From a virus: 33,071 nt of DNA. Location: IMG/VR virus record IMGVR_UViG_3300042397_000302, positions 1 through 33,071 of that record. One strand, 5' to 3'. Both the position numbers and the translations under genes were made by a program. The notes beneath the pieces were generated by a model. It worked only from the letters and a program-made list of their open reading frames with translations. It was not told the DNA's origin and did not search any database. Below, one piece after another: positions 8,633-20,695 of this stretch (the stretch's first letter is position 1; each line of letters starts with the position of its first letter).

Positions 8633-9307
8633 ATGCCAACAAAAATATATAACACAGCGGTAGTCTATTTACTAGACGATACAAAACTCTACTTAACACC
8701 ACTCAAGATTAGATATCTGAGAGAGTTTATGGATGAGTTTGAAAATGTTCGTGCTGTCAGCGGAGACAGTGACGCAATTGGCTACTTGTCTAAATGCGTG
8801 GTTATTGCTATGCAGCAATACTGTCCATCAATTAAAACGGTAGAGGATCTTGAAGAAGTCGCAAACTTGCCAATAATTTACAAGATTCTAGAAATTGCGG
8901 CAGATATAAAAATTAATGAAAAATCAGAAGAGCCAGTAAAGAAACAAGCAGAAACAGGCAGTTCGACATGGGATACCCTAAACCTAGCAAAAATCGAATC
9001 AGAAGTATTCCTGATGGGAACCTGGAAAGACTATGAAGAACTTGAGTTATCCCTATCTATGCCAGAACTAACAGAAACTCTAAATGCCAAAAGAGAACAA
9101 GACTATGAGCACAGAAAGTTTCTGGCAGCAATCCAGGGTATAGACATTGAGTCAAGTAGGAAGCAAGAAGAAGATCCCTGGGAGAAGTTAAAGAACAAGG
9201 TGTTTAATAATGGAGGAGACCCAAACGACGTAACATCACTAAGAGGCCAAAAGGCAGCAAGGGCTGGATTTGGTATTGGCATGGGCCTAAGTTACGAAAA
9301 AGTTTAA
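8633..9307 (+). CDS. Tail assembly chaperone, long (gpGT-like) form in one frame
   Basis: This is a 224-residue protein. Residues 1-100 match the short chaperone gene just downstream in layout and motifs (LTPLKIRYLREFMDEFE here, VRPLKISLLRPFMEKFEK there; LPIIYKILEIA versus LPTVYKIVEEA). Residues about 115-224 add a second domain with MGTWKDYEELELSLSMPEL and an EHRKFLAAIQGID segment, the kind of extension that most phages reach only by a programmed frameshift (lambda gpGT). Here it is encoded without a frameshift. Chaperones of this type bind the tape measure and tube protein during tail assembly. Transcription appears leaderless, suggesting lower output than the short form. Confidence 0.8.
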   Translation: MPTKIYNTAVVYLLDDTKLYLTPLKIRYLREFMDEFENVRAVSGDSDAIGYLSKCVVIAMQQYCPSIKTVEDLEEVANLPIIYKILEIAADIKINEKSEEPVKKQAETGSSTWDTLNLAKIESEVFLMGTWKDYEELELSLSMPELTETLNAKREQDYEHRKFLAAIQGIDIESSRKQEEDPWEKLKNKVFNNGGDPNDVTSLRGQKAARAGFGIGMGLSYEKV

Positions 9308-9360: not shown

Positions 9361-9672
9361 ATGACAACAACAATTAACGAAGAAAAGACCATCACACTTA
9401 TCGATGGTACATCGTTTAAAGTAAGACCACTGAAGATTTCTTTGCTTCGACCATTTATGGAGAAGTTTGAGAAGATCTCTGAGGTTGCAGATGACAACAC
9501 AAAGTCTATGGACTTGCTTCTAGAATGTGTGCTTATTGCTCTTAAGCAGTATAAGCCAGAGTTGGCTGAAAAGCCAGAGGCTCTAGAAGAACTCCTGGAC
9601 CTTCCAACGGTTTACAAGATTGTGGAAGAGGCTTCTGGTATTAAACTATCAGAAACCAGTGGACTTAGGTAG
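9361..9672 (+). CDS. Tail assembly chaperone, short (gpG-like) form
   Basis: This 103-residue protein corresponds to the N-terminal half of the preceding gene's product, with the same order of segments: an N-terminal beta hairpin, VRPLKISLLRPFMEKFEK, a helix with CVLIALKQY, and LPTVYKIVEEASG. It lacks the second domain. It has its own extended -10 promoter and a consensus AAAGGAGG ribosome site, so it is probably made in excess over the long form. No slippery sequence precedes its stop codon, and only 34 bases remain before the tape measure start, so it cannot be extended by frameshifting into a T-like domain. It is best explained as a paralogue arising by duplication. Confidence 0.8.
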   Translation: MTTTINEEKTITLIDGTSFKVRPLKISLLRPFMEKFEKISEVADDNTKSMDLLLECVLIALKQYKPELAEKPEALEELLDLPTVYKIVEEASGIKLSETSGLR

Positions 9673-9706: not shown

Positions 9707-12700
9707 ATGGCTGATTCTCAGACTAATATCAATATTAATATTGATACCAGTCAGGCGTTAGCCAATCTTAAGGCTTTACAGTCTCAGATATCAGCCTTCC
9801 AAACATCCATGGCAAAGGGTTCAGCAACCCAGGCAGCCAACGCAGCAAAAATTCGTCAAAACTTGATGAATGACATTAATGCTACAAACAAATTTGCGGC
9901 AAGCATTAAGACAATCAAAACTACCGCAGAATCTTTTACAGAATCACTTGAGAAAAATAAACTCTCAATGGGCCAGTACTTTAAGTACGCTGGCGGTGCT
10001 TCTAAGAGTTTTGGTAAACTCTTTAAAAACGAGATGGCAACCATCGACAAGGTTGCACGTGAACGTGTCAAGACACTACAAACCCAATACATTCAACTAG
10101 GCCGTGATGCAAGCGGTGCAATGAAGTCGATTGCTGTTCGTCCACTTGTTTTGGACATGGACAACTATGCAACTAAAACAGCGATCGCTGCTCAGAAACA
10201 ACAAATCCTGAACCAACTTCTCAAGCAGGGTTCTACAAACCTACTAAACTTTGGTAAGAATACTCAGTGGGCTGGTCGCCAACTTATGGTTGGTTTCACT
10301 GTTCCACTTGCTATGGCAGGAACAGCAGCAGCAAAAACATACATGGAGATGGAAAAGGCTGTTGTTAAGTTTAAGCGTGTTTATGGAGATCTTAATACTA
10401 CTGGTGCAGAAACTGCTAAAACCCTAGAAACCCTACGTCAACTATCTGGTGAGTTTACCAAGTATGGTATTGCAGTAGCAGACACAATGGATATGGCTGC
10501 TCAGGCTGCAGCCACAGGTAAGATGGGTGCTGACCTAATTGCCCAGGTACAGAATGCAACTAAACTTGCAGTACTAGGTGGTGTTGAGCAGTCGCAAGCA
10601 CTTGAAACAACAATCTCACTAACGAATGCTTTTGGTGTCGCTGCAGAAGACTTGTCTGGAAAGATTGACTTCCTTAACGCAGTTGAAAACCAAACTGTAA
10701 CTTCGATTGAAGACCTTACAATTGCTATTCCAAAAGCAGCACCAGTTATTCAGCAACTTGGTGGAGACGTAAAGGACCTAGCGTTCTTCCTGACCGCTAT
10801 GCGTGAAGGTGGTATTAACGCATCTGAAGGTGCTAACGCACTTAAGTCTGGTCTTGCCTCTATGATTAACCCAACCAAGCAGGCATCTGAATTCCTTGCT
10901 GGCTTCGGTATTAGCGTTAAGGGAATTGTAGAAGGCACAAGGGGAGATGTTAAGCAAACAATCCTGCAGATGGCAACAGCGTTTGACACGCTTGACCCAC
11001 TAAACCGAGCACGTGCAATTGAGCAGATGTTTGGTAAGTTCCAGTTTGCACGTATCTCAACACTATTCCAGAACGTAATTAAAGAGGGTAGCCAGGCACA
11101 AACAGTTCTGGACTTGTCTAGAAACACAGCAGAAGAACTTGCTGTTCTATCTCAACGAGAACTAGGTAAGATTTCAGAATCTCCAATGTTTAAGTTCCAA
11201 AAAACACTTGAGGATATCCAGGCGAAGATTGCTCCAATTGGAGAAGCCTTCCTTAAAATGATTACCCCAATCATTGAGTGGGCAGGAACCCTCATTGATA
11301 ACTTCAACAACATGGGTAAGGGAGTTAAAGATTTTTGGCTAGGCCTTGTTGCTGGTGTTGCTGGACTTGGTCCAGTATTGCTTATGGGATTTGGTCTAAT
11401 TGCCAACGGTGTAGCAAACCTTATAAAGTTGTTTGCTAACATAAAATCTTGGTTTAACAAAACATCAGACTCCACCACAACTCTAGGTATGCAAACCTCA
11501 TACATGAGCCAAGAGCAACTTGAGGCTGCTGCGGTTGCGGCATCTTTGGATCAGGCACACTCAAGCCTTGTGCAAACCTTTACCTCCGAGGCCCTGGCGG
11601 TAGACAAACTAAGAACTGCATACGAGAAAGCCATCCTTGCACAACAACAATTCTCAAATACAAATGTAATTCCAACAACAGTAACACCAAGAAACGATGA
11701 TGTTGATGGATATGCTGCTGGAGGTATTATTCGTGGTAGAGGAACAGGAACCTCTGACTCAATTATTGCAAGAGTTTCAAACGGAGAGGCTGTTATTCCT
11801 GCTAAGTCCGTTGCGAAAAACAGGGGTCTTGTCCAGGGTCTAATTGCTGGAGACCTTCCTGCTTATGCAGAGGGTGGCTTTATTGGAATGCCAAAGTCTT
11901 ATGCAAGAGTTCAGAATGAAAGAAACAGTGCAAACGCAGTTTACGAAAAATTCCTACAAAGCGAAAGATTTAAGAACCAGCCACCAGAAAACTATGTTGG
12001 TCAGAAGAGTAGAACAACTGGACACAGTTTCCCAATTTTTGGAATTGGCGGTATCTGGCACAAGGCAGACGGTTCTGACGTATTCGTAAAACCAGTAATG
12101 GACGAACTATCTGCAATGGCAGAACTTCGTGGAACAATTATTGCAAGAGATGCACATGGACTAGTTACACCACAACAGCGTGTTGTTGTAATGAAAGACC
12201 CAACAGATAGAACTGGAGTCAGAAAGTTCCTAGCACTAGAGTCACCACTTGACCCTAGACTTTCAGAACCTACTGGTAAGTTTACCAAAGCAGAGTATTT
12301 CCAACAACTATTAGCATCTACACTTCGTGGAGACAAAGACCTTTCAGCAGATAACATATTTGGAAACATGCTTCCAGACGTTGGACCTGCTGGTGTATTT
12401 AATCGTGCATCTGGACTTCGTGAGTACGAGCCAAACATGCCGTCAATTGCCGAGCAAGCAACTATCAACCTTTTGGGTGTTAAGGGTGGAGCCAAGAAAG
12501 CATTTGCCCAGAACACAGCAGACCTAGTTAGGTCAATGACTCCAGAAGAATACTCTGTGGGCATGAGAGCAGAAATTGACAGAGTTCTTCCAAGACTAGA
12601 ACAAACCATTAACTCTCTAGGATTGAACGAGGTAGAACTTCCAATCTACAAGGCAATGATTACAAGATTGCAAGAAGCAAAGACCCTTGACTGGACAAAG

Positions 12701-15700
12701 TTCTACCAGATGCACACCAATGTCCAAGCACCAAAACCATCACAATCAGAAATTCAAAGTTTTGCTAAGGGTGGAATTGTAGGAGAGTCAGTAGATCCAT
12801 CTTCTGCTGTAGTCGCCTTTGGTGCTCACCAGCCATTCACTACTGCACATGAAATGATTGCAAGAATGGGAATGGACCTAGCAGCAAAAAAGGGTTCACA
12901 GTTTAAGCAATTCTCAACGGCCCAGGGCAAGTCAAAGAGGTCGCTACTATCCGATGCACTAAAAACAAAACTAATTAGCGAGTCAATTGGAATAACTCCA
13001 CAGATTACAAGAGACCCATATAGTTTGATGGAATCTTTGGCACTGCAAGGTATTAAAGATGTAACTCTGCTTCTTGGTCAGGACAGAATGACAGCAGGCG
13101 TGTTTGACCTTGCTGCTGTAGAGCATGGAGTTAAGTTAACTAAGATTGCAATTCCTAGAGAGCCAGGATCTCCATCTGGCACAGAGACCAGGCTAGCAAT
13201 TTCAAACAACGATACCAGAAGATATCAAGAACTAATCGCTTCTGGTGCAACCCAATCAACTAAGGACCAAGTCTTCAAAGAGATGAAGGCTGCGATGGAA
13301 ATTCCGAAGTTGGCTCAGGGTGGCTTGGTAGTTAATGGCAAAATTGCAGACCCAATTGAACTTGCAAAGAGCAGGATGAAGAACAATGACCCATCCAAGA
13401 AGAGAGATCAACTTTCTTATAGATACTCTGTAAAGACCAACCCAGAAACAAATGGACCAATGCATGCAATTGAAGCAATTGACATAATGGGCGTGACACG
13501 AGGCAGTCTTGATTGGGACCGAGACAGTGGAGAAATTCTTATGGTCTGGGTTGAAGAAGGACTTCGCCGTATGGGCATTGCCTCTGATATGTGGCATGCA
13601 GCAAATCTAGAAGCCCTTAAAAATCCATCTGCCATTATACATCCAGTTCACTCTTCAGAGATATCTGCCGACGGAGCAGCCTGGAGAGACAGCGTAAGCG
13701 GTGCTAAACTTAGAGATACAAACTGGGTAAGCGACAACAACACCGTTAACCCACGTGAAGAATATCTTAAGACATTAGTTAAAGACAACAAGTTTGCTAG
13801 AGGCGGTATGGTTTCTGGCCCTGGTACAGGAACAAGCGATTCAATCTTTGCAATGCTTTCAAATGGCGAAGCAGTCATCCCTGCTAAGTCAGTAGCAAGA
13901 AATCCAGAACTAGTTAAGTCTCTTATTTCCGATGACATTCCTGGATTCTCTCAGGGCAAGATGCCAGATTATAGACAAAAGCAGGAACTTGCACCATCGA
14001 CACGACTTACTCCAACCTGGGAAACCCTCCCACAACTAGACAAGGTATCGACAGAGCAGACTGCTAGAACAGAGCAACTTCTTGGTTCAATAAATGCTAG
14101 CCAAACAAATGCATCTAAAATAGTTGTGAGCCTAGTCAAGTATGTTGGAGATAGCGAAGAACTTTTCAAACAGGCAAACGATGCCATGGCACAACTCCTA
14201 GATTCTGGTATTACTGACTCAAGAATGCTTAAGGACGAAATTAGAAAAGTTCTAGGCATAACATCAAATAACCAAGGGGCAAAATCACTTACACACATTA
14301 GCGAAGGTTATACAACAACTAGAGAAAAGGCCTTAGAACAAGAAAAACAAGGAAGCCTAGCCCTAACTGCAGGACAAAGAAAAAAGATAACAGGTTTGCC
14401 AGAAGGTTCTCCTGTACCACTAAAGCATGGCCTTGGAGTAGTCTTAGAACCTAATGCCGAAGGTGTTCCATTCAACTCACAAGAAATGAACAGAAGGCTA
14501 GCATCCCCAGGTAAAAACTTTGACAAGGCACTTTCTGCCGAAGAATTTTCAGCATTCTTTAATGCAAATGGAATTGAAAAATGGAGCGACTCAGTTGAAA
14601 TGGGTGGTGGCAACCTACAAGAATTAGCAACACAGGCTGAAATTCTAGAAAATGCCTTTAGGCAGGTTATTGCAAGTCTTCCTGCAGGTACAAAAATATT
14701 TGACACAGAAGAACTAAAACAGGCATACCTTGGTGCAAATCCAGATGGAAATGCCAGAACAGTAACTGAAATGTATTCAGAAGCCAGGACATCAATACAG
14801 GGCACAAAACTTGAGTCTGTGCTAGACAGATCTGGAACTTTGGTTGCAGAAGAAAGGTCTGGAGAAAGCAGATCTCCTGGTAGACCTAAGCGTATAGACA
14901 TGGCAAAGCGAAGTAGAAACCTTCAGCCAGATCCAGAGTTAGTTGCCATGGCAGAAGCATCGGGAATGGCTGGTGCTGGTGCAAACGCCATGAAAGAATA
15001 CATTGATGGTGCAAAGTCTGTAGGCTCTAAAGAAGAAAACGACCCTGTCCACATAGCAAGATCTGAAAAGCGTAACAGCCCTCACCCACAGGCTGGTATT
15101 GACGGTGCCGACGATGCAAACGCATACTTAAAAACTAGAAATGAAATCTTAAAATCTTCAGCATCAGCCGAAGACATGTATGTCGCAGGGTCGCCACAAC
15201 AACCAGCCGAGAAACTTGGTCTAGCACAACGTGCAAAGATCAAGATAGCAAGCACGGCTGCTGGTGTTGCTGGACAAGTCTACGGCACAAGAGCCTTTGG
15301 ACCAGCAGGTGGCGTAGTCGCAGGAGAGGCTGCATCAGCAATAACAGATAAAGGTCTCACAATGCTTTCGAACGGCTTTGAGAAACTAAAGACAAAGATT
15401 GGTGCATTTGGACAAGCATTAACAATTAAGGGAAATAATAGTCGGGATGTAGTCTCATCTATAAAAGCAGGCTTTGACAGTAGACTAGACGTAACAGAAC
15501 AACTACCAGACCTTGACCCTAAGATTGCAGGCAAGATAACTGACAAGAACCTAAAGATTATTTCAGCAGCAGTTGTAGAACAAGAAAATACCCTTTCAAG
15601 ACTAAGAGACAAAACAATAAAAGTTGTTGATCAAACTTCTGCTGCTCAAGAAGAGATGGTTACAAATACTAAAGATAGTCTCCTAAACCTATCTGACGAA

Positions 15701-18700
15701 CTTGAACAAACCCTTGCTGAAGCAGAGAAAAACTCTTCAGACATTAAAGATTCCCCAAGTAACAGAAGAAACCGTCTTAAAGATTTCTTCAGCGAAACAA
15801 ATGGTAGAGATGAAGAAGGCAATAGAAAATCTGGAATCGTCAATCGAATGGGTGGAACCCAAGGCATTAAGAGAAGCATGGGTGCAGTTGCTGCTGCAGT
15901 TGGTATGGCAACAATGGTTCCAGGAGCAATTGGTCAGGCAGCCCAAGCAGCAATGGGGCCAATCTCTGCTGCAACAGCAGCAATGTCTCTAATTCCTGGA
16001 CCTGCAGGTTTGGTTGCTGGTGGCCTTGCCCTAGTTGCAACAACAACCATGGCAGTAATCGACATGCTAAACAAGAACCGCAGAAAAGCAGCGGAACTTC
16101 AAGAGAACCTTTCTACTAGCAACAAGGCTATGGCAAAGTATGCAGAGTTCTCAAAGAAGGTAACAGGATCAGAAGTAATGAATAAGAGGAGAGAGTCTGA
16201 ACTAGGATTGTTTAACTATGCTCCTGGAAAGAAGTCATTCGGACTGTCGTTCATGGAATCTGATGCTGGAAAGCAGTTGCTTGACTCAGTTGGACAAGAA
16301 ATGAAATCCGATAGAGGGGCAGAGTCTGCTCAAACACTTGTAACAAACCAACTACTTGCTGCGGTAACGTCGGGTGCTCTAACCTCTGCTCAAGCAAGAA
16401 GCGTTGCAGCAGCCCTTGGAAAAGAAATGAAAGACCAGACATTTGCAATGTCGGTAACTGGGAATCTGCTAGAACTTTTGGGACCAGATGGAGAGAACCT
16501 AACTAAAGATCCACTGAAACTAAGACTTGAAGTCATAAACCAAGCATCAGGAATTCTTGGTGAGATTCAGACAGACATGGAAGAGGCAACCGCAGCAGGC
16601 ACAAACGGCTGGGACTACGTTCTTGATATTGCAACACTTGGAATTTCTGCAGCAGTCAGGTATCAAGATAATCTTGGTAAGGCCGCAGGTAGGTGGCAAG
16701 CACAGGCCCAGGCATTAATTGAAACTGGACAACAGCAATTAGACGCACTTGATTTAGAATATGAAAAGAGAATTAAGAATCTTTATGCTGCTGGCAAGAT
16801 TGCTGAGGCAGAAGAATTAACCAATAAGCACATTCAAGATAGAAAAACTTTGATGGATGTCAACGGAGATCAAATCCAGGCAATGATTGATGCCGTTAAT
16901 GCAGCAGATAATGACTTTGGTTTCTTTGGTGGTGGACAGCAGAATGCAATGTCAAACTCTGCAAATGACGCAATTGCAAAAGCATACGAAGGCTCGGCGT
17001 TCTCTGCTCAGGCAGAAGGACTAAGAAACGACATAGACGCTACCAAGGGAGACAAGGGACAGCAGGTAACACTTAAGAGCATAGTAGCAAGCAAGACGCT
17101 GGGTCTTAATCAGGCAGCACTCGGTGTCGAACTATTTGGTAAAACCTCAGAGGGTATGGACCAACTTATGGCTCTTCTTACTGAAATGGGAGATCCAGCA
17201 GCAGCGAATACAGCACTCAGCCTTGCATCTTTATTTTCAGATAAGGCTACCGCAAAGCAATTTATTATAGATGTTCAGGCTAAGGGTACTGAGGGCAAGG
17301 CTCTAGTTGATGCCATGGCTCTAGTTCAAAGAAGTGGTGTCAATACAGACATGAATCTTATTGTTACCTATTTCCAAAAGAACCCAGCCGTAGCCCTAGA
17401 TATCAAAAAACAAATAGATGCTATTAAAAACGAACCAGAGATTACTCGTACCGTTATTACAAAACATCTAGGACAAAAGGCCATAGACGCTATCAAGACA
17501 GACCAGAAATACTTCGACTCTCTAGACAAAGAAAATAAAATTGTTTATCTAACAAACTTGCAAACAACAATTGCATTAGATGCAGACCCAGAATTCTTGG
17601 CTGATAAAGCACTTTATGAAACAAGAATGGGTACAGGAAAAATTAGCAATGCAGAATATCACGCAATTCTTGCAAATGAAGTTACTAAAAATAGAATTGC
17701 CGTAAATGCCCCTGGTATGGCAGGCGACAAAGGTGGCTCTGGTGGCAGCGGTCCATCTGCTTCTTGGTTAGATGAAGTTGTAAAAAAGACTCGTGACCTA
17801 TACAAGGCTAACCAGCAACTAACAATTGGGTATAAGGCATCTGGAAATGCTTTGGCAGCATTCTACAAAAAGGGAAAGATAGCCCTTACAGAAATGCAGG
17901 GTATGCAGATGCAGTTGGCAAACGCAGGTCTTGGAAGAGACATTATAAGCAACATCCTTGGAATGCCAAAAGAAGAAGCAGAAAAATGGATGAAGATGTT
18001 CTTGAAGAAGGGTGTCGTTACAGATTTTGCCAAAGAAGTTAATGCAATTATGTATGCTAATAAAGCAGGAGACTACATAGCAGAAACAAAACTTTTGACC
18101 AATGAATACAACAACCAAGTTAAGGCCACCTCTGCCCTGACCGCTGCTGGTATTGATGGTGCTCATGCTCAGTCAATGTTAAATGACGAGAACATGAGGT
18201 CTATCCTTTATGGAGTCACTCTGTCTGGCAGCATTGCCGAACAAACCGAAAAGGTCAAAGCCCTAACTCGTGCCAACATTGAAAACTTAGCACTTGAAAA
18301 CCTCAAGAAAGATCCAAGACAAAGAGAGATTGATCGTGCAGGAATACAAATTGATGCTATTCAAAAAGAAAATGCTATCTACCAAAACGGTCTTGAGATA
18401 ATTTCAAAGCAAGAAGAGAAAATTTCTGCGGTATACGATAAGCAAATTGCTGCTCTCAATGAAGTTAAAACAATCAATGATCAAATCTCTAGACAAAAGC
18501 AGGGAGAACTAGACCTTGCCGATGCTCTATCACGTGGAGATATTGGTGCTGCAGCAAAGGCTGCTCAACAACTTAGAACACAAAATGCACAAGATGCAGC
18601 AGAAGCCCAGACAAAGGCACTAGAAGATGCAAAGAAGAGAGCACTTGCAGCCATCTCAGTTGAGATTGATGGAAAGAGATATACAAGGCTAGAACTTACC

Positions 18701-20695
18701 GACAAGATTGGGGTAGGCGAAGAAGCAATTCTTAAAATCCAAAAAGACCAGATCGTTCAGCAAGAAGCAGCCCTTGCCAATGATAGACTTCGCTTAGACT
18801 ACCTAGTAAAAATTAAAGAAGCCGAACTGGCAATTGCTGGTGCACAACAGTCTGGACTACAAAACAATAAGCCTGGAGGAGGTGCTAAGGGTACTGGTGT
18901 TGGAGGTTCTGATAATAGTGGAACTGTTACTCCAGTTGTTACTCCAACCGTTACCCCAACAGTAACCCCAACGGCAAGTTCATCAACCTCAGCACTTGCA
19001 GGTTTACAAAAATTTGATAAAACGGTATTAGACAAGCAATTCGGTGGCCGATTTAATTCGTTAATGAATTCCGCATCTATAGCAACTGAAGTATCAAGCA
19101 GCATTACTGGAAGCAATGCCCTTAGAGGTATACTTCAAGAGGGCATACGTAATCAATTTGTAGACATGAACACAAACAGGTTCCTTGACAGATCAAAAAT
19201 TGCAGCGAACAAAAGAGGAGACTACGATGCTTTAAAGTTAAGGTATGACGAACAGTTGGCAGTCAATGAAGGCAGAAAGGCTGATTTCGCTGCAAGGAGG
19301 CAAGACCTTGTTTCAAAACTACCACAAGAAATTAAAAATGCATTAGATGTTTTAAAAAATAGAAAAACCGAAATCGCTCCACTGATTACAGCCGAAGCAG
19401 CAGCAAAAAGAGCATACACTTCAACAATAGAAAAACAACTTGGCTTTGATAAAAAAACTGGAAGACCAATTATTGGACCACAAACAGAACAACAAAAAAA
19501 GGATGGAACTTCAGATCAACAATTTGCCGATGCTGCTTTTGCTAAATACATGGACAATGGTTTAAGAGACCTAAATGTATTTAATGGTAGAATTGCTCAA
19601 ATTGAACAACTTCTTGCAAGTAATGGTTTTTCAAAAGATAAAATTATTAGTCTTATAGGCGAGTACGCTTCTGGTGGATACATTTCTGGCCCTGGTACTC
19701 AAACATCAGACTCAATTCCAGCAATGCTTTCAGATGGAGAGTATGTAGTAAAAGCATCTTCAGTAGATAAGATTGGTACCGCAGCCCTTGACTACATGAA
19801 CAAAACAGGCAGAGTTGCCAAATTTGCTATAGGCGGAATGGCTGACAGAAGAGATGCTGCTATGGCTAGTCGTGCACCAAGCAAACTTCAGCAGTGGGCT
19901 GCTAGTCGTATGGGACGCTTACTGGGCAACTCCGACTGGCAGAATGCTGGCAGAACTCGCTTCGGCCTAAGCCGTGCACAAATGGATGCTTACATTGAAT
20001 CTCAAAAAGCAAACCAAATCTCAGCAAACTCTAGAACTTCAACTGGCAGTCTTCAGTTGGGGGCATTGGCAAACGACAAGAGCATTTCAATGGAGGCTGC
20101 AAGAATTATGGCTTCGTTTGTTCCAGTCATAGGTGCAGGATCTGCTCTAGCGAATACTGCCACAGGAGTGGCAGGTGGAGACTTGCAGTCTGCAGGCTTT
20201 AGTGCTTTGGGTGCTTTTGGTGGATTTGGTGGGGCACTAAGACTTGGATCAAAAACACTAAATGCTGTAGAAGGACTACAAAGAACAACTACAGCCGTTG
20301 CTAAAGCAGACAATATGTTTGGAAAGTTTAACAAGAAGGCTGGCCTATCTGCCAACATTGCTGGAACATCTAAAGGATATATTGAGTCATATTTCACAAG
20401 TGGGCAATTGCCAACATTCCACAAGGGTGGAATGGTTCCTGGAAACTTCGATATGCCAATTATGGCTAAGGGTGGAGAGTTTGTAATGAGTGAGTATGCT
20501 GTTAAGCAATATGGAACAGACACAATGGGTGCAATGAATTCTGGAAATGCTGCGGTACTTGGCGATTCAGTGTATAATTATAGTGTCAACGTAAACGTTG
20601 CCAACACAGGTGCAAATCCTAACGATATTGCAAGAACCGTAATGGCACAAATTAGGCAGATTGACTCACAGCGAATTAGGAGCAATGTTCTATAA
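9707..20695 (+). CDS. Tape measure protein with embedded enzyme-like domains
   Basis: This 3,662-residue protein sets tail length and is normally expelled into the host envelope during DNA entry. Residues about 195-470 match the TP901-type tape measure core (TIGR01760/PF10145 style: VKFKRVYGDL, MAAQAAATGKMGADLI, ALKSGLASMINPT). Hydrophobic segments lie near 195-212, 543-580 (the strongest, hairpin-like), 2057-2125 and 3468-3515. Inserted at 735-1345 are kinase-like, nucleotidyltransferase-like and GNAT-like domains, listed separately. An unrecognised possibly globular stretch lies near 1540-1725. A long coiled coil spans about 2873-3055, and a TPTV-type linker about 3073-3093. Gly-rich modules recur at 669, 1363, 3320 and 3571. 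The start has AGAGGTG upstream. The first about 600 codons prefer CGN arginine, while later parts prefer AGA. Confidence 0.92.
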   Translation: MADSQTNININIDTSQALANLKALQSQISAFQTSMAKGSATQAANAAKIRQNLMNDINATNKFAASIKTIKTTAESFTESLEKNKLSMGQYFKYAGGASKSFGKLFKNEMATIDKVARERVKTLQTQYIQLGRDASGAMKSIAVRPLVLDMDNYATKTAIAAQKQQILNQLLKQGSTNLLNFGKNTQWAGRQLMVGFTVPLAMAGTAAAKTYMEMEKAVVKFKRVYGDLNTTGAETAKTLETLRQLSGEFTKYGIAVADTMDMAAQAAATGKMGADLIAQVQNATKLAVLGGVEQSQALETTISLTNAFGVAAEDLSGKIDFLNAVENQTVTSIEDLTIAIPKAAPVIQQLGGDVKDLAFFLTAMREGGINASEGANALKSGLASMINPTKQASEFLAGFGISVKGIVEGTRGDVKQTILQMATAFDTLDPLNRARAIEQMFGKFQFARISTLFQNVIKEGSQAQTVLDLSRNTAEELAVLSQRELGKISESPMFKFQKTLEDIQAKIAPIGEAFLKMITPIIEWAGTLIDNFNNMGKGVKDFWLGLVAGVAGLGPVLLMGFGLIANGVANLIKLFANIKSWFNKTSDSTTTLGMQTSYMSQEQLEAAAVAASLDQAHSSLVQTFTSEALAVDKLRTAYEKAILAQQQFSNTNVIPTTVTPRNDDVDGYAAGGIIRGRGTGTSDSIIARVSNGEAVIPAKSVAKNRGLVQGLIAGDLPAYAEGGFIGMPKSYARVQNERNSANAVYEKFLQSERFKNQPPENYVGQKSRTTGHSFPIFGIGGIWHKADGSDVFVKPVMDELSAMAELRGTIIARDAHGLVTPQQRVVVMKDPTDRTGVRKFLALESPLDPRLSEPTGKFTKAEYFQQLLASTLRGDKDLSADNIFGNMLPDVGPAGVFNRASGLREYEPNMPSIAEQATINLLGVKGGAKKAFAQNTADLVRSMTPEEYSVGMRAEIDRVLPRLEQTINSLGLNEVELPIYKAMITRLQEAKTLDWTKFYQMHTNVQAPKPSQSEIQSFAKGGIVGESVDPSSAVVAFGAHQPFTTAHEMIARMGMDLAAKKGSQFKQFSTAQGKSKRSLLSDALKTKLISESIGITPQITRDPYSLMESLALQGIKDVTLLLGQDRMTAGVFDLAAVEHGVKLTKIAIPREPGSPSGTETRLAISNNDTRRYQELIASGATQSTKDQVFKEMKAAMEIPKLAQGGLVVNGKIADPIELAKSRMKNNDPSKKRDQLSYRYSVKTNPETNGPMHAIEAIDIMGVTRGSLDWDRDSGEILMVWVEEGLRRMGIASDMWHAANLEALKNPSAIIHPVHSSEISADGAAWRDSVSGAKLRDTNWVSDNNTVNPREEYLKTLVKDNKFARGGMVSGPGTGTSDSIFAMLSNGEAVIPAKSVARNPELVKSLISDDIPGFSQGKMPDYRQKQELAPSTRLTPTWETLPQLDKVSTEQTARTEQLLGSINASQTNASKIVVSLVKYVGDSEELFKQANDAMAQLLDSGITDSRMLKDEIRKVLGITSNNQGAKSLTHISEGYTTTREKALEQEKQGSLALTAGQRKKITGLPEGSPVPLKHGLGVVLEPNAEGVPFNSQEMNRRLASPGKNFDKALSAEEFSAFFNANGIEKWSDSVEMGGGNLQELATQAEILENAFRQVIASLPAGTKIFDTEELKQAYLGANPDGNARTVTEMYSEARTSIQGTKLESVLDRSGTLVAEERSGESRSPGRPKRIDMAKRSRNLQPDPELVAMAEASGMAGAGANAMKEYIDGAKSVGSKEENDPVHIARSEKRNSPHPQAGIDGADDANAYLKTRNEILKSSASAEDMYVAGSPQQPAEKLGLAQRAKIKIASTAAGVAGQVYGTRAFGPAGGVVAGEAASAITDKGLTMLSNGFEKLKTKIGAFGQALTIKGNNSRDVVSSIKAGFDSRLDVTEQLPDLDPKIAGKITDKNLKIISAAVVEQENTLSRLRDKTIKVVDQTSAAQEEMVTNTKDSLLNLSDELEQTLAEAEKNSSDIKDSPSNRRNRLKDFFSETNGRDEEGNRKSGIVNRMGGTQGIKRSMGAVAAAVGMATMVPGAIGQAAQAAMGPISAATAAMSLIPGPAGLVAGGLALVATTTMAVIDMLNKNRRKAAELQENLSTSNKAMAKYAEFSKKVTGSEVMNKRRESELGLFNYAPGKKSFGLSFMESDAGKQLLDSVGQEMKSDRGAESAQTLVTNQLLAAVTSGALTSAQARSVAAALGKEMKDQTFAMSVTGNLLELLGPDGENLTKDPLKLRLEVINQASGILGEIQTDMEEATAAGTNGWDYVLDIATLGISAAVRYQDNLGKAAGRWQAQAQALIETGQQQLDALDLEYEKRIKNLYAAGKIAEAEELTNKHIQDRKTLMDVNGDQIQAMIDAVNAADNDFGFFGGGQQNAMSNSANDAIAKAYEGSAFSAQAEGLRNDIDATKGDKGQQVTLKSIVASKTLGLNQAALGVELFGKTSEGMDQLMALLTEMGDPAAANTALSLASLFSDKATAKQFIIDVQAKGTEGKALVDAMALVQRSGVNTDMNLIVTYFQKNPAVALDIKKQIDAIKNEPEITRTVITKHLGQKAIDAIKTDQKYFDSLDKENKIVYLTNLQTTIALDADPEFLADKALYETRMGTGKISNAEYHAILANEVTKNRIAVNAPGMAGDKGGSGGSGPSASWLDEVVKKTRDLYKANQQLTIGYKASGNALAAFYKKGKIALTEMQGMQMQLANAGLGRDIISNILGMPKEEAEKWMKMFLKKGVVTDFAKEVNAIMYANKAGDYIAETKLLTNEYNNQVKATSALTAAGIDGAHAQSMLNDENMRSILYGVTLSGSIAEQTEKVKALTRANIENLALENLKKDPRQREIDRAGIQIDAIQKENAIYQNGLEIISKQEEKISAVYDKQIAALNEVKTINDQISRQKQGELDLADALSRGDIGAAAKAAQQLRTQNAQDAAEAQTKALEDAKKRALAAISVEIDGKRYTRLELTDKIGVGEEAILKIQKDQIVQQEAALANDRLRLDYLVKIKEAELAIAGAQQSGLQNNKPGGGAKGTGVGGSDNSGTVTPVVTPTVTPTVTPTASSSTSALAGLQKFDKTVLDKQFGGRFNSLMNSASIATEVSSSITGSNALRGILQEGIRNQFVDMNTNRFLDRSKIAANKRGDYDALKLRYDEQLAVNEGRKADFAARRQDLVSKLPQEIKNALDVLKNRKTEIAPLITAEAAAKRAYTSTIEKQLGFDKKTGRPIIGPQTEQQKKDGTSDQQFADAAFAKYMDNGLRDLNVFNGRIAQIEQLLASNGFSKDKIISLIGEYASGGYISGPGTQTSDSIPAMLSDGEYVVKASSVDKIGTAALDYMNKTGRVAKFAIGGMADRRDAAMASRAPSKLQQWAASRMGRLLGNSDWQNAGRTRFGLSRAQMDAYIESQKANQISANSRTSTGSLQLGALANDKSISMEAARIMASFVPVIGAGSALANTATGVAGGDLQSAGFSALGAFGGFGGALRLGSKTLNAVEGLQRTTTAVAKADNMFGKFNKKAGLSANIAGTSKGYIESYFTSGQLPTFHKGGMVPGNFDMPIMAKGGEFVMSEYAVKQYGTDTMGAMNSGNAAVLGDSVYNYSVNVNVANTGANPNDIARTVMAQIRQIDSQRIRSNVL
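11711..11872 (+). repeat. Gly-rich tape-measure module, copy 1
   Basis: Residues 669-722 of the tape measure read as YAAGGIIRGRGTGTSDS followed by a NGEAVIPAKSVAKN segment. This is the GG-x-GPGTGTSDS-I-a-x-LSNGE-x-V-I module that recurs in many phage tape measures. It lies immediately before the enzyme-like domains and is closest in sequence to copy 2 (same NGEAVIPAKSVA core). Confidence 0.8.
11909..12736 (+). other. Kinase-like domain inside tape measure
   Basis: Residues about 735-1010 have the order of elements expected of a protein-kinase-like or PI3K/HipA-like fold. A glycine turn (GIGGIWHKADG) is followed by VFVKP with candidate ATP-binding Lys 795, then AMAELRG with candidate salt-bridge Glu 806. 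A hinge-like FLALESPLD comes next, then GDKDLSADNIFGN at 875-887, where Asp 876/883 and Asn 884 fit a catalytic-loop and metal-binding role. The C-terminal part is helical. Substrate is unknown, and the match is by motif order only, so it may be a divergent or inactive member. Confidence 0.45.
12800..13291 (+). other. NMNAT/cytidylyltransferase-like domain inside tape measure
   Basis: Residues about 1032-1195 start with a beta strand leading into GAHQPFTTAH (1039-1048), which resembles the nucleotide-binding GRFQPFHxGH motif of the HIGH-type nucleotidyltransferase superfamily, with the second His kept (His 1048) and His 1041 present. Near the end SGTETR (1157-1162) resembles the ISSTxxR motif. 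Between them lies VTLLLGQDRM, matching the usual strand with a Gly. The pairing of both motifs at normal spacing makes this the best supported of the three domains. Substrate is not predictable. Confidence 0.55.
13394..13741 (+). other. GNAT acetyltransferase-like domain inside tape measure
   Basis: Residues about 1230-1345 show the GNAT order: strands LSYRYSV and HAIEAIDIMGVTRG, then GEILMVWVEEGLRRMGIASD, in which RRMGIA (1287-1292) fits the acetyl-CoA-binding R/Q-x-x-G-x-G/A motif at the start of a helix. It ends with SADGAAWRDSVSG, like the C-terminal segment of small phage-encoded GNAT proteins. The acceptor substrate is unknown. Confidence 0.55.
13793..13960 (+). repeat. Gly-rich tape-measure module, copy 2
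   Basis: Residues 1363-1418 begin FARGGMVSGPGTGTSDSIF and continue with NGEAVIPAKSVARN, closely matching copy 1 at the protein level. Nucleotide sequences have diverged (many synonymous changes), so the duplication is not recent. The two copies bracket the three enzyme-like domains. Confidence 0.8.
18923..18985 (+). repeat. Thr-Pro-Val tandem linker in tape measure
   Basis: Residues about 3073-3093 contain repeated TPTV/TPVV units followed by a Ser run. This is a flexible or extended linker separating the long coiled coil from the C-terminal region. Confidence 0.7.
19664..19840 (+). repeat. Gly-rich tape-measure module, copy 3
   Basis: Residues 3320-3378 begin YASGGYISGPGTQTSDSIP and continue with SDGEYVVKASSVDK, then end FAIGGM. 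This is the same module as copies 1 and 2, here in the C-terminal region where it is usual in tape measures. Confidence 0.8.
20417..20551 (+). repeat. Gly-rich tape-measure module, copy 4 (shortened)
   Basis: Residues 3571-3615 begin FHKGGMVPGNFDMPIMAKGG and continue with EFVMSEYAVKQYG. The GPGTGTSDS part is replaced, but the GG-x-V opening and the GE-F-V-x-x-x-A core are retained. Confidence 0.6.

Follow-up and report, generated by a model that had tools for sequence, protein, structure and literature searches.

An exchangeable slot for enzyme domains in the tape measure protein of an uncultured siphophage-type virus, with a possible role in effector delivery

Known tape measure proteins (TMPs) undergo ejection and possibly membrane insertion. 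The enzymes that they are known to carry are mainly cell-wall hydrolases, and head-packaged or conjugative proteins are the presumed carriers of the injected effector arrays known so far. The closest known concept to the cargo described here is that of the polyvalent proteins of phages and conjugative elements, large mobile-element polypeptides that each combine several enzymatic conflict domains, with kinases, GNATs, nucleotidyltransferases and ARTs among the listed activities; they vary in a cassette-like manner and are thought to be delivered with the DNA (Iyer et al. 2017, PMC5512222). The TM4-type mt3 domain is an enzymatic domain located in an actinophage TMP: this peptidoglycan hydrolase acts on the cell wall, its activity affects DNA injection and it is dispensable for viability (PMC1796659). 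TMP-like carriers with exchangeable functional domains are also found in Actinobacteria, as the Sle1/Tme effectors of contractile injection systems (CIS); these modular, TMP-related proteins are packaged in the tube, packaging and ejection were shown for Sle1, and an adaptable fold inside the tube was suggested (PMC13277306). We found no report of TMPs with an enzyme slot of the kind presented below in the open-licence literature.

We analysed a virus record of 33,071 bases, hereafter the window, whose TMP holds a kinase, a nucleotidyltransferase and a GNAT-like domain. Like polyvalent proteins, which combine at least two different enzymatic conflict-type domains, it carries several of them on one large polypeptide, in a slot with cassette-like variability. 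However, the carrier is a tape measure, a phrase absent from the main text of the polyvalent protein paper (PMC5512222), the nucleotidyltransferase is of the HIGH type and not of the Pol-beta type, the kinase lies outside PF18762 (Kinase-PolyVal), and the processing peptidase (MPTase) that pervades the polyvalent class was not detected in the window TMP with Pfam. Like mt3, the cargo lies within a TMP, but its domains need cytoplasmic cofactors. It resembles Sle1/Tme in its exchangeable domains, whereas the latter belong to contractile injection systems and bear their effector domains at the C-terminus, and the window TMP belongs to an infectious siphophage-type virus and has an internal slot.

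The gene order of the window is of the siphophage type (portal, protease, major capsid, tail genes, two small genes, TMP, minor tail proteins, DnaB helicase). The TMP gene (9707..20695, + strand) encodes 3662 residues and matched TIGR01760 (2.9e-31), PhageMin_Tail (1.5e-25) and phrog_10030 (1.4e-92). This TIGR01760/PhageMin_Tail core and the position of the gene, between a pair of small genes and the minor tail genes, identify it as a TP901-type tape measure, the chaperones being recognised by position only. The two small genes in the tail-assembly-chaperone position (8633-9307 and 9361-9672) have a common match to phrog_10504, which suggests a duplicated or frameshifted chaperone. The portal shares 47% identity with its counterpart in Streptomyces phage NootNoot, indicating that the phage is a distant uncultured relative of the Stanwilliamsviridae, and its host is likely actinobacterial. 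Of the nearest cultured relatives, two were checked, the Streptomyces Stanwilliamsviridae NootNoot and Gilson; their TMPs consist of the core and an M23 peptidase only, with none of the enzyme cargo. In the window TMP, Pfam detected no peptidase or peptidoglycan hydrolase family (mt1-3, M23 etc.). Degenerate-pattern scans found no match to the TMP core or to the kinase in bacterial genome contigs.

The conserved N-terminal core of the TMP (residues 1-662, 9707..11692, + strand) includes a hydrophobic segment at 542-567 and is 56-76% identical to that of most surveyed TMPs, and 37-38% identical in a distant group. Behind it, the initial annotation had described three enzyme-like domains between two Gly-rich modules. 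This observation was confirmed with refined boundaries, and proved larger than claimed. The region 11711-13960 corresponds to residues 669-1418. A profile (HMM) survey located the modules at residues 669-720 (11711..11866, +) and 1362-1414 (13790..13948, +), with 63% amino acid identity to each other, and a third, partial module near the C-terminus (residues 3320-3355, 19664..19771, +). The three enzyme domains lie between the first two modules within a single open frame, a short GG linker leading from each to the next: FAKGGIVG (12761..12784, +), similar to linkers that divide the cargo domains of a related TMP, L004, and KLAQGGLV (13307..13327, +), where GGLVVNGKIADPI is conserved with L004. 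According to hydropathy, the slot is flanked by the hydrophobic segments 542-567 and 2092-2111, a position compatible with placement on one side of a membrane. Downstream of the second module, 13949-15706 is related to the first cargo of another TMP, L028 (32% over 299 aa), so that the mosaic extends beyond that module. In named phages, kinase and GNAT domains had no relatives at E<=1 and the nucleotidyltransferase had weak matches only, which leaves these domains without a cultured model; the matches to 11711-13960 fell on the Gly-rich module (best 50 of 159 records). Searching PDB sequences with profiles of the domains gave no real match. Structures were predicted in two jobs, as a joint alignment of the three domains misplaced nucleotidyltransferase fragments. 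Prediction and fold search, which the initial annotation had proposed as a check, recovered kinase and nucleotidyltransferase folds.

The kinase-fold domain (residues 728-1018, 11888..12760, +) was modelled by AlphaFold from 25 homologues with a pLDDT of 92.3 and a pTM of 0.90. The listed PDB matches of the model were kinases or kinase-fold proteins, with VIA Z scores of 11.7 for CotH, 10.8 for CtkA, 10.0 for PI4K-II and 8.8 for HipA, in agreement with the kinase-like call made from sequence. K795, E806, E845, D876, D878, N883 and D891-x-G893 (K68, E79, E118, D149, D151, N156, D164 and G166 in domain numbering) were invariant in 47/47 kinases, drawn from sequences with widely differing TMP cores, and correspond to the kinase-type positions VFVKP Lys, AExR Glu, LES, RxDxDL, N and D-x-G. 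The fold, together with the Lys, Glu, catalytic Asp, Asn and D-x-G, assigns the domain to the CotH/HipA/PI4K-type superfamily. It thus shares fold (Z 8-11.7) and K...E...D-x-D...N...D-x-G residues with the CotH/CtkA/HipA/PI4K-type atypical kinases, but differs from them in that, at the level of sequence, it matched none of the Pfam kinase families, not even CotH: the CotH model PF08757 did not match at E 10, nor did PF18762 among 7 records. The best viral structure matches of the fold were large phage proteins of several domains, named ADP-ribosyltransferase or portal, which, with the kinases, GNATs and ARTs listed for polyvalent proteins (PMC5512222), reinforces the parallel to such virion proteins drawn at the outset.

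The nucleotidyltransferase domain (residues 1028-1200; 12791..13306, +, for residues 1029-1200) displays the motifs GAHQPFTTAH (1039-1048) and SGTETR (1157-1162). Its model matched CoaD (Z 14.2), NadM (13.1) and NadD, all at Z 13-14, and phrog_3041 cytidyltransferase matched the domain at 1.2e-6. The Pfam CTP_transf_like cut-off was passed by two homologues (L026 and L022), the window copy falling below it. In domain numbering, H20, the last His of GAHQPFTxAH, and S129-x-T131-x-x-R134 were invariant in 7/7 nucleotidyltransferases. Fold and HxGH-like and SxTxxR-like motifs are those of the HIGH-type superfamily, which supports the original nucleotidyltransferase-like reading.

The domain at residues 1205-1358 (13319..13780, +) is probably an acetyltransferase of GNAT type, the least secure of the three enzyme calls. 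Its Pfam Acetyltransf_1 score was 20.5 bits for a cut-off of 20.7, while the 82% identical L004 copy reached 22.0 bits; both copies contain the acetyl-CoA-type R/Q-x-x-G-x-A motif (RRMGIA at 1287-1292 in the window, RRQGIA in L004). The structure model of this part was poor and the assignment was made by profile only. Pattern scans yielded no further GNAT homologues beyond L003/L004, and in L156, a C-terminal TMP segment of the phage of L022, GNAT matches were sub-threshold only. In this segment, GNAT-like and ART-looking segments precede the final Gly-rich module, and the C-terminal end of the TMP may hold a second cargo site.

Other enzymes were seen in the same slot in uncultured lake-phage relatives; according to a profile survey, most TMPs of the clade carry one Gly-rich module at ~662-690. 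The survey for swapping or loss of domains was clearly positive, with empty, single-cargo and multi-cargo slots. One module with none of the profiled cargo behind it was found in L010, L017 and L014; two modules flanked a nucleotidyltransferase in L005 and L006 and a kinase in L027, L030, L033, L036 and L052; three modules delimited two inserts in L028 and L035, and separated a DUF3626-like insert from a nucleotidyltransferase in L020. The L003/L004 slot comprises a kinase, a HAD phosphatase (Pfam 1.6e-11), a helical segment, a GNAT-like domain and one further domain, with short GG linkers between them. The HAD motifs DxDDT, T71 and DD were invariant in 4/4; the extra L004 domain, a candidate ART, had no Pfam match. 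Module bracketing is common but not universal, since another group (e.g. L037-L039) has a kinase without a second module. To estimate frequencies, 68 distinct TMPs were picked by their N-terminal core alone and six domains were profiled: a kinase was present in 25/68, DUF3626-like domains in 5 (one near the C-terminus), HAD in 4, and nucleotidyltransferase and GNAT-like domains in 1 each; 37/68 had none of the six. In the scans made, kinase- and GNAT-bearing frames were all TMPs wherever the contig included the TMP start, as were HAD-bearing frames of at least 60% identity; over all scans seeded with kinase, HAD or GNAT, three distant short HAD proteins were the exceptions.

Several further segments were observed. 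The L168 TMP (L168:7454-9631, +, TMP residues 1581-2306) has a cargo bay of ~1,580 residues with a kinase, a HAD and then two related G-x-G-x-YF-type segments, like the extra L004 domain and possibly ART-like. A C-terminal TMP insert (L132:14493-16496, +) combines a HEIVHHF metallopeptidase-like motif with an ART-looking segment and has no Pfam match. One cargo family (L020, L102, L108, L114, L117) weakly matches DUF3626 (1.1e-4 in L108); conservation in it falls on RPxYG, YG, D and E positions. In L040, L043, L045, L048 and L054, whose cores are only 37-40% identical to that of the window, the kinases are 47-51% identical to its kinase and lie at residue ~1280-1375, with no strong Gly modules nearby.

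Kinase, nucleotidyltransferase and GNAT-like domains were seen in this order in the window record only. Rather than a fixed system, the trio suggested as an effector system represents a single state of an exchangeable slot. In the TMP-core tree the window pairs with L004 (97/96 support), whereas in the kinase tree it groups with L027 and L084 (100/99 support). Forcing kinase and core trees to agree was rejected three ways (AU p 0.0086, 0.0021 and 0.0003), and closely related kinases were found in TMPs whose cores stand about five changes per site apart. This conflict indicates that cargo moves between TMPs. Identities between window and L004 (82% for GNAT, 74% for the core, 54% for the kinase) likewise reveal unequal histories. 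Homologous recombination at the Gly modules is a possible route of exchange. Recent recombination through near-identical modules was not supported, the copies in one TMP showing 48-79% DNA identity, only slightly closer than between TMPs.

Given the computed folds (least securely that of the GNAT), the catalytic-type residues that never vary in the kinases and nucleotidyltransferases compared, and a cargo that keeps to one site, is present or absent there and is exchanged between TMPs, we favour, at a probability of roughly 55%, a polyvalent-protein-like effector array of kinase (CotH-type), nucleotidyltransferase and GNAT-like domains delivered by the TMP. The invariance of the kinase motifs makes the domains look like working enzymes, and their need for ATP, NTP or acetyl-CoA, cosubstrates confined to the cytoplasm, predicts that compartment as their site of action. 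In the proposed mechanism, the slot just behind the conserved core and first hydrophobic segment would receive interchangeable enzyme domains delimited by Gly-rich modules and short GG linkers, in the window a CotH/HipA/PI4K-fold kinase, a HIGH-superfamily nucleotidyltransferase and a GNAT-like acetyltransferase. These domains would ride extended inside the tail tube, exit with the TMP before the genome and refold at the cytoplasmic face of the host membrane. Their action would fall early in infection, on proteins or metabolites of the host that they modify for takeover or counter-defence, as thought for polyvalent proteins. Delivery at infection is, on our analysis, somewhat better than an even bet. 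It is tempered by the dimensions of the tube: several copies of a folded ~32-kDa domain (~4 nm by mass) should not fit a lumen of ~4 nm, so that unfolding would be needed for passage. The lack of a Pfam-detected processing peptidase in the TMP and of a PF18762 match also count against it.

The main rival to delivery is that the cargo acts in the producing cell, the enzyme segments of the late-made TMP modifying proteins of host or phage as the tail is assembled or earlier, and perhaps then being cleaved out. The cofactors are present in that cell, internal TMP processing has been reported for other phages (noted in PMC1796659) and the tube is a poor fit for a folded domain; but it is hard to explain without delivery why effectors are kept in a tube-packaged protein and not encoded by separate late genes, and no peptidase domain was detected in the TMP by Pfam. 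We regard this rival as possible but rather unlikely. That the cargo consists of non-catalytic inserts, tolerated as spacers or with a part in assembly or tip binding, would fit the tolerance of TMPs to insertions and deletions and their freely varying content, but is improbable in view of kinase motifs kept through 47 divergent copies and of invariant HAD and nucleotidyltransferase motifs. We give slightly less credit still to enzymes that modify the phage's own tail proteins and so self-regulate assembly or ejection: they do sit within a tail protein, but the 37 TMPs without any profiled domain imply that assembly does not need cargo, and the varied chemistries suggest varied outside targets. 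The occurrence of the exact trio in one record could point to chimeric assembly or chance resemblance. However, the frame is uninterrupted and each of the three domains recurs at the same TMP site in independent contigs, which excludes these as general causes and makes them very improbable here.

Extending the delivery reading to a large uncultured clade of aquatic siphophage-type viruses, we see about an even chance that their TMPs serve generally as delivery vehicles, fitted with an exchangeable slot whose cargo would be unfolded in the tube and refold in the host. If so, the slot repertoire would include kinase, nucleotidyltransferase, HAD phosphatase, GNAT, DUF3626-like and possibly ART domains, and TMP cargo would resemble polymorphic toxins but serve infection takeover or counter-defence. 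The passage of folded enzymes through a tail tube would become testable, and the pattern of N-terminal core, Gly module, cargo and Gly module would guide the search for early-infection effectors in uncultured phages. With a TMP slot in which ATP-, NTP- and acetyl-CoA-type enzymes can be exchanged, the tail itself would become a device that delivers effectors.
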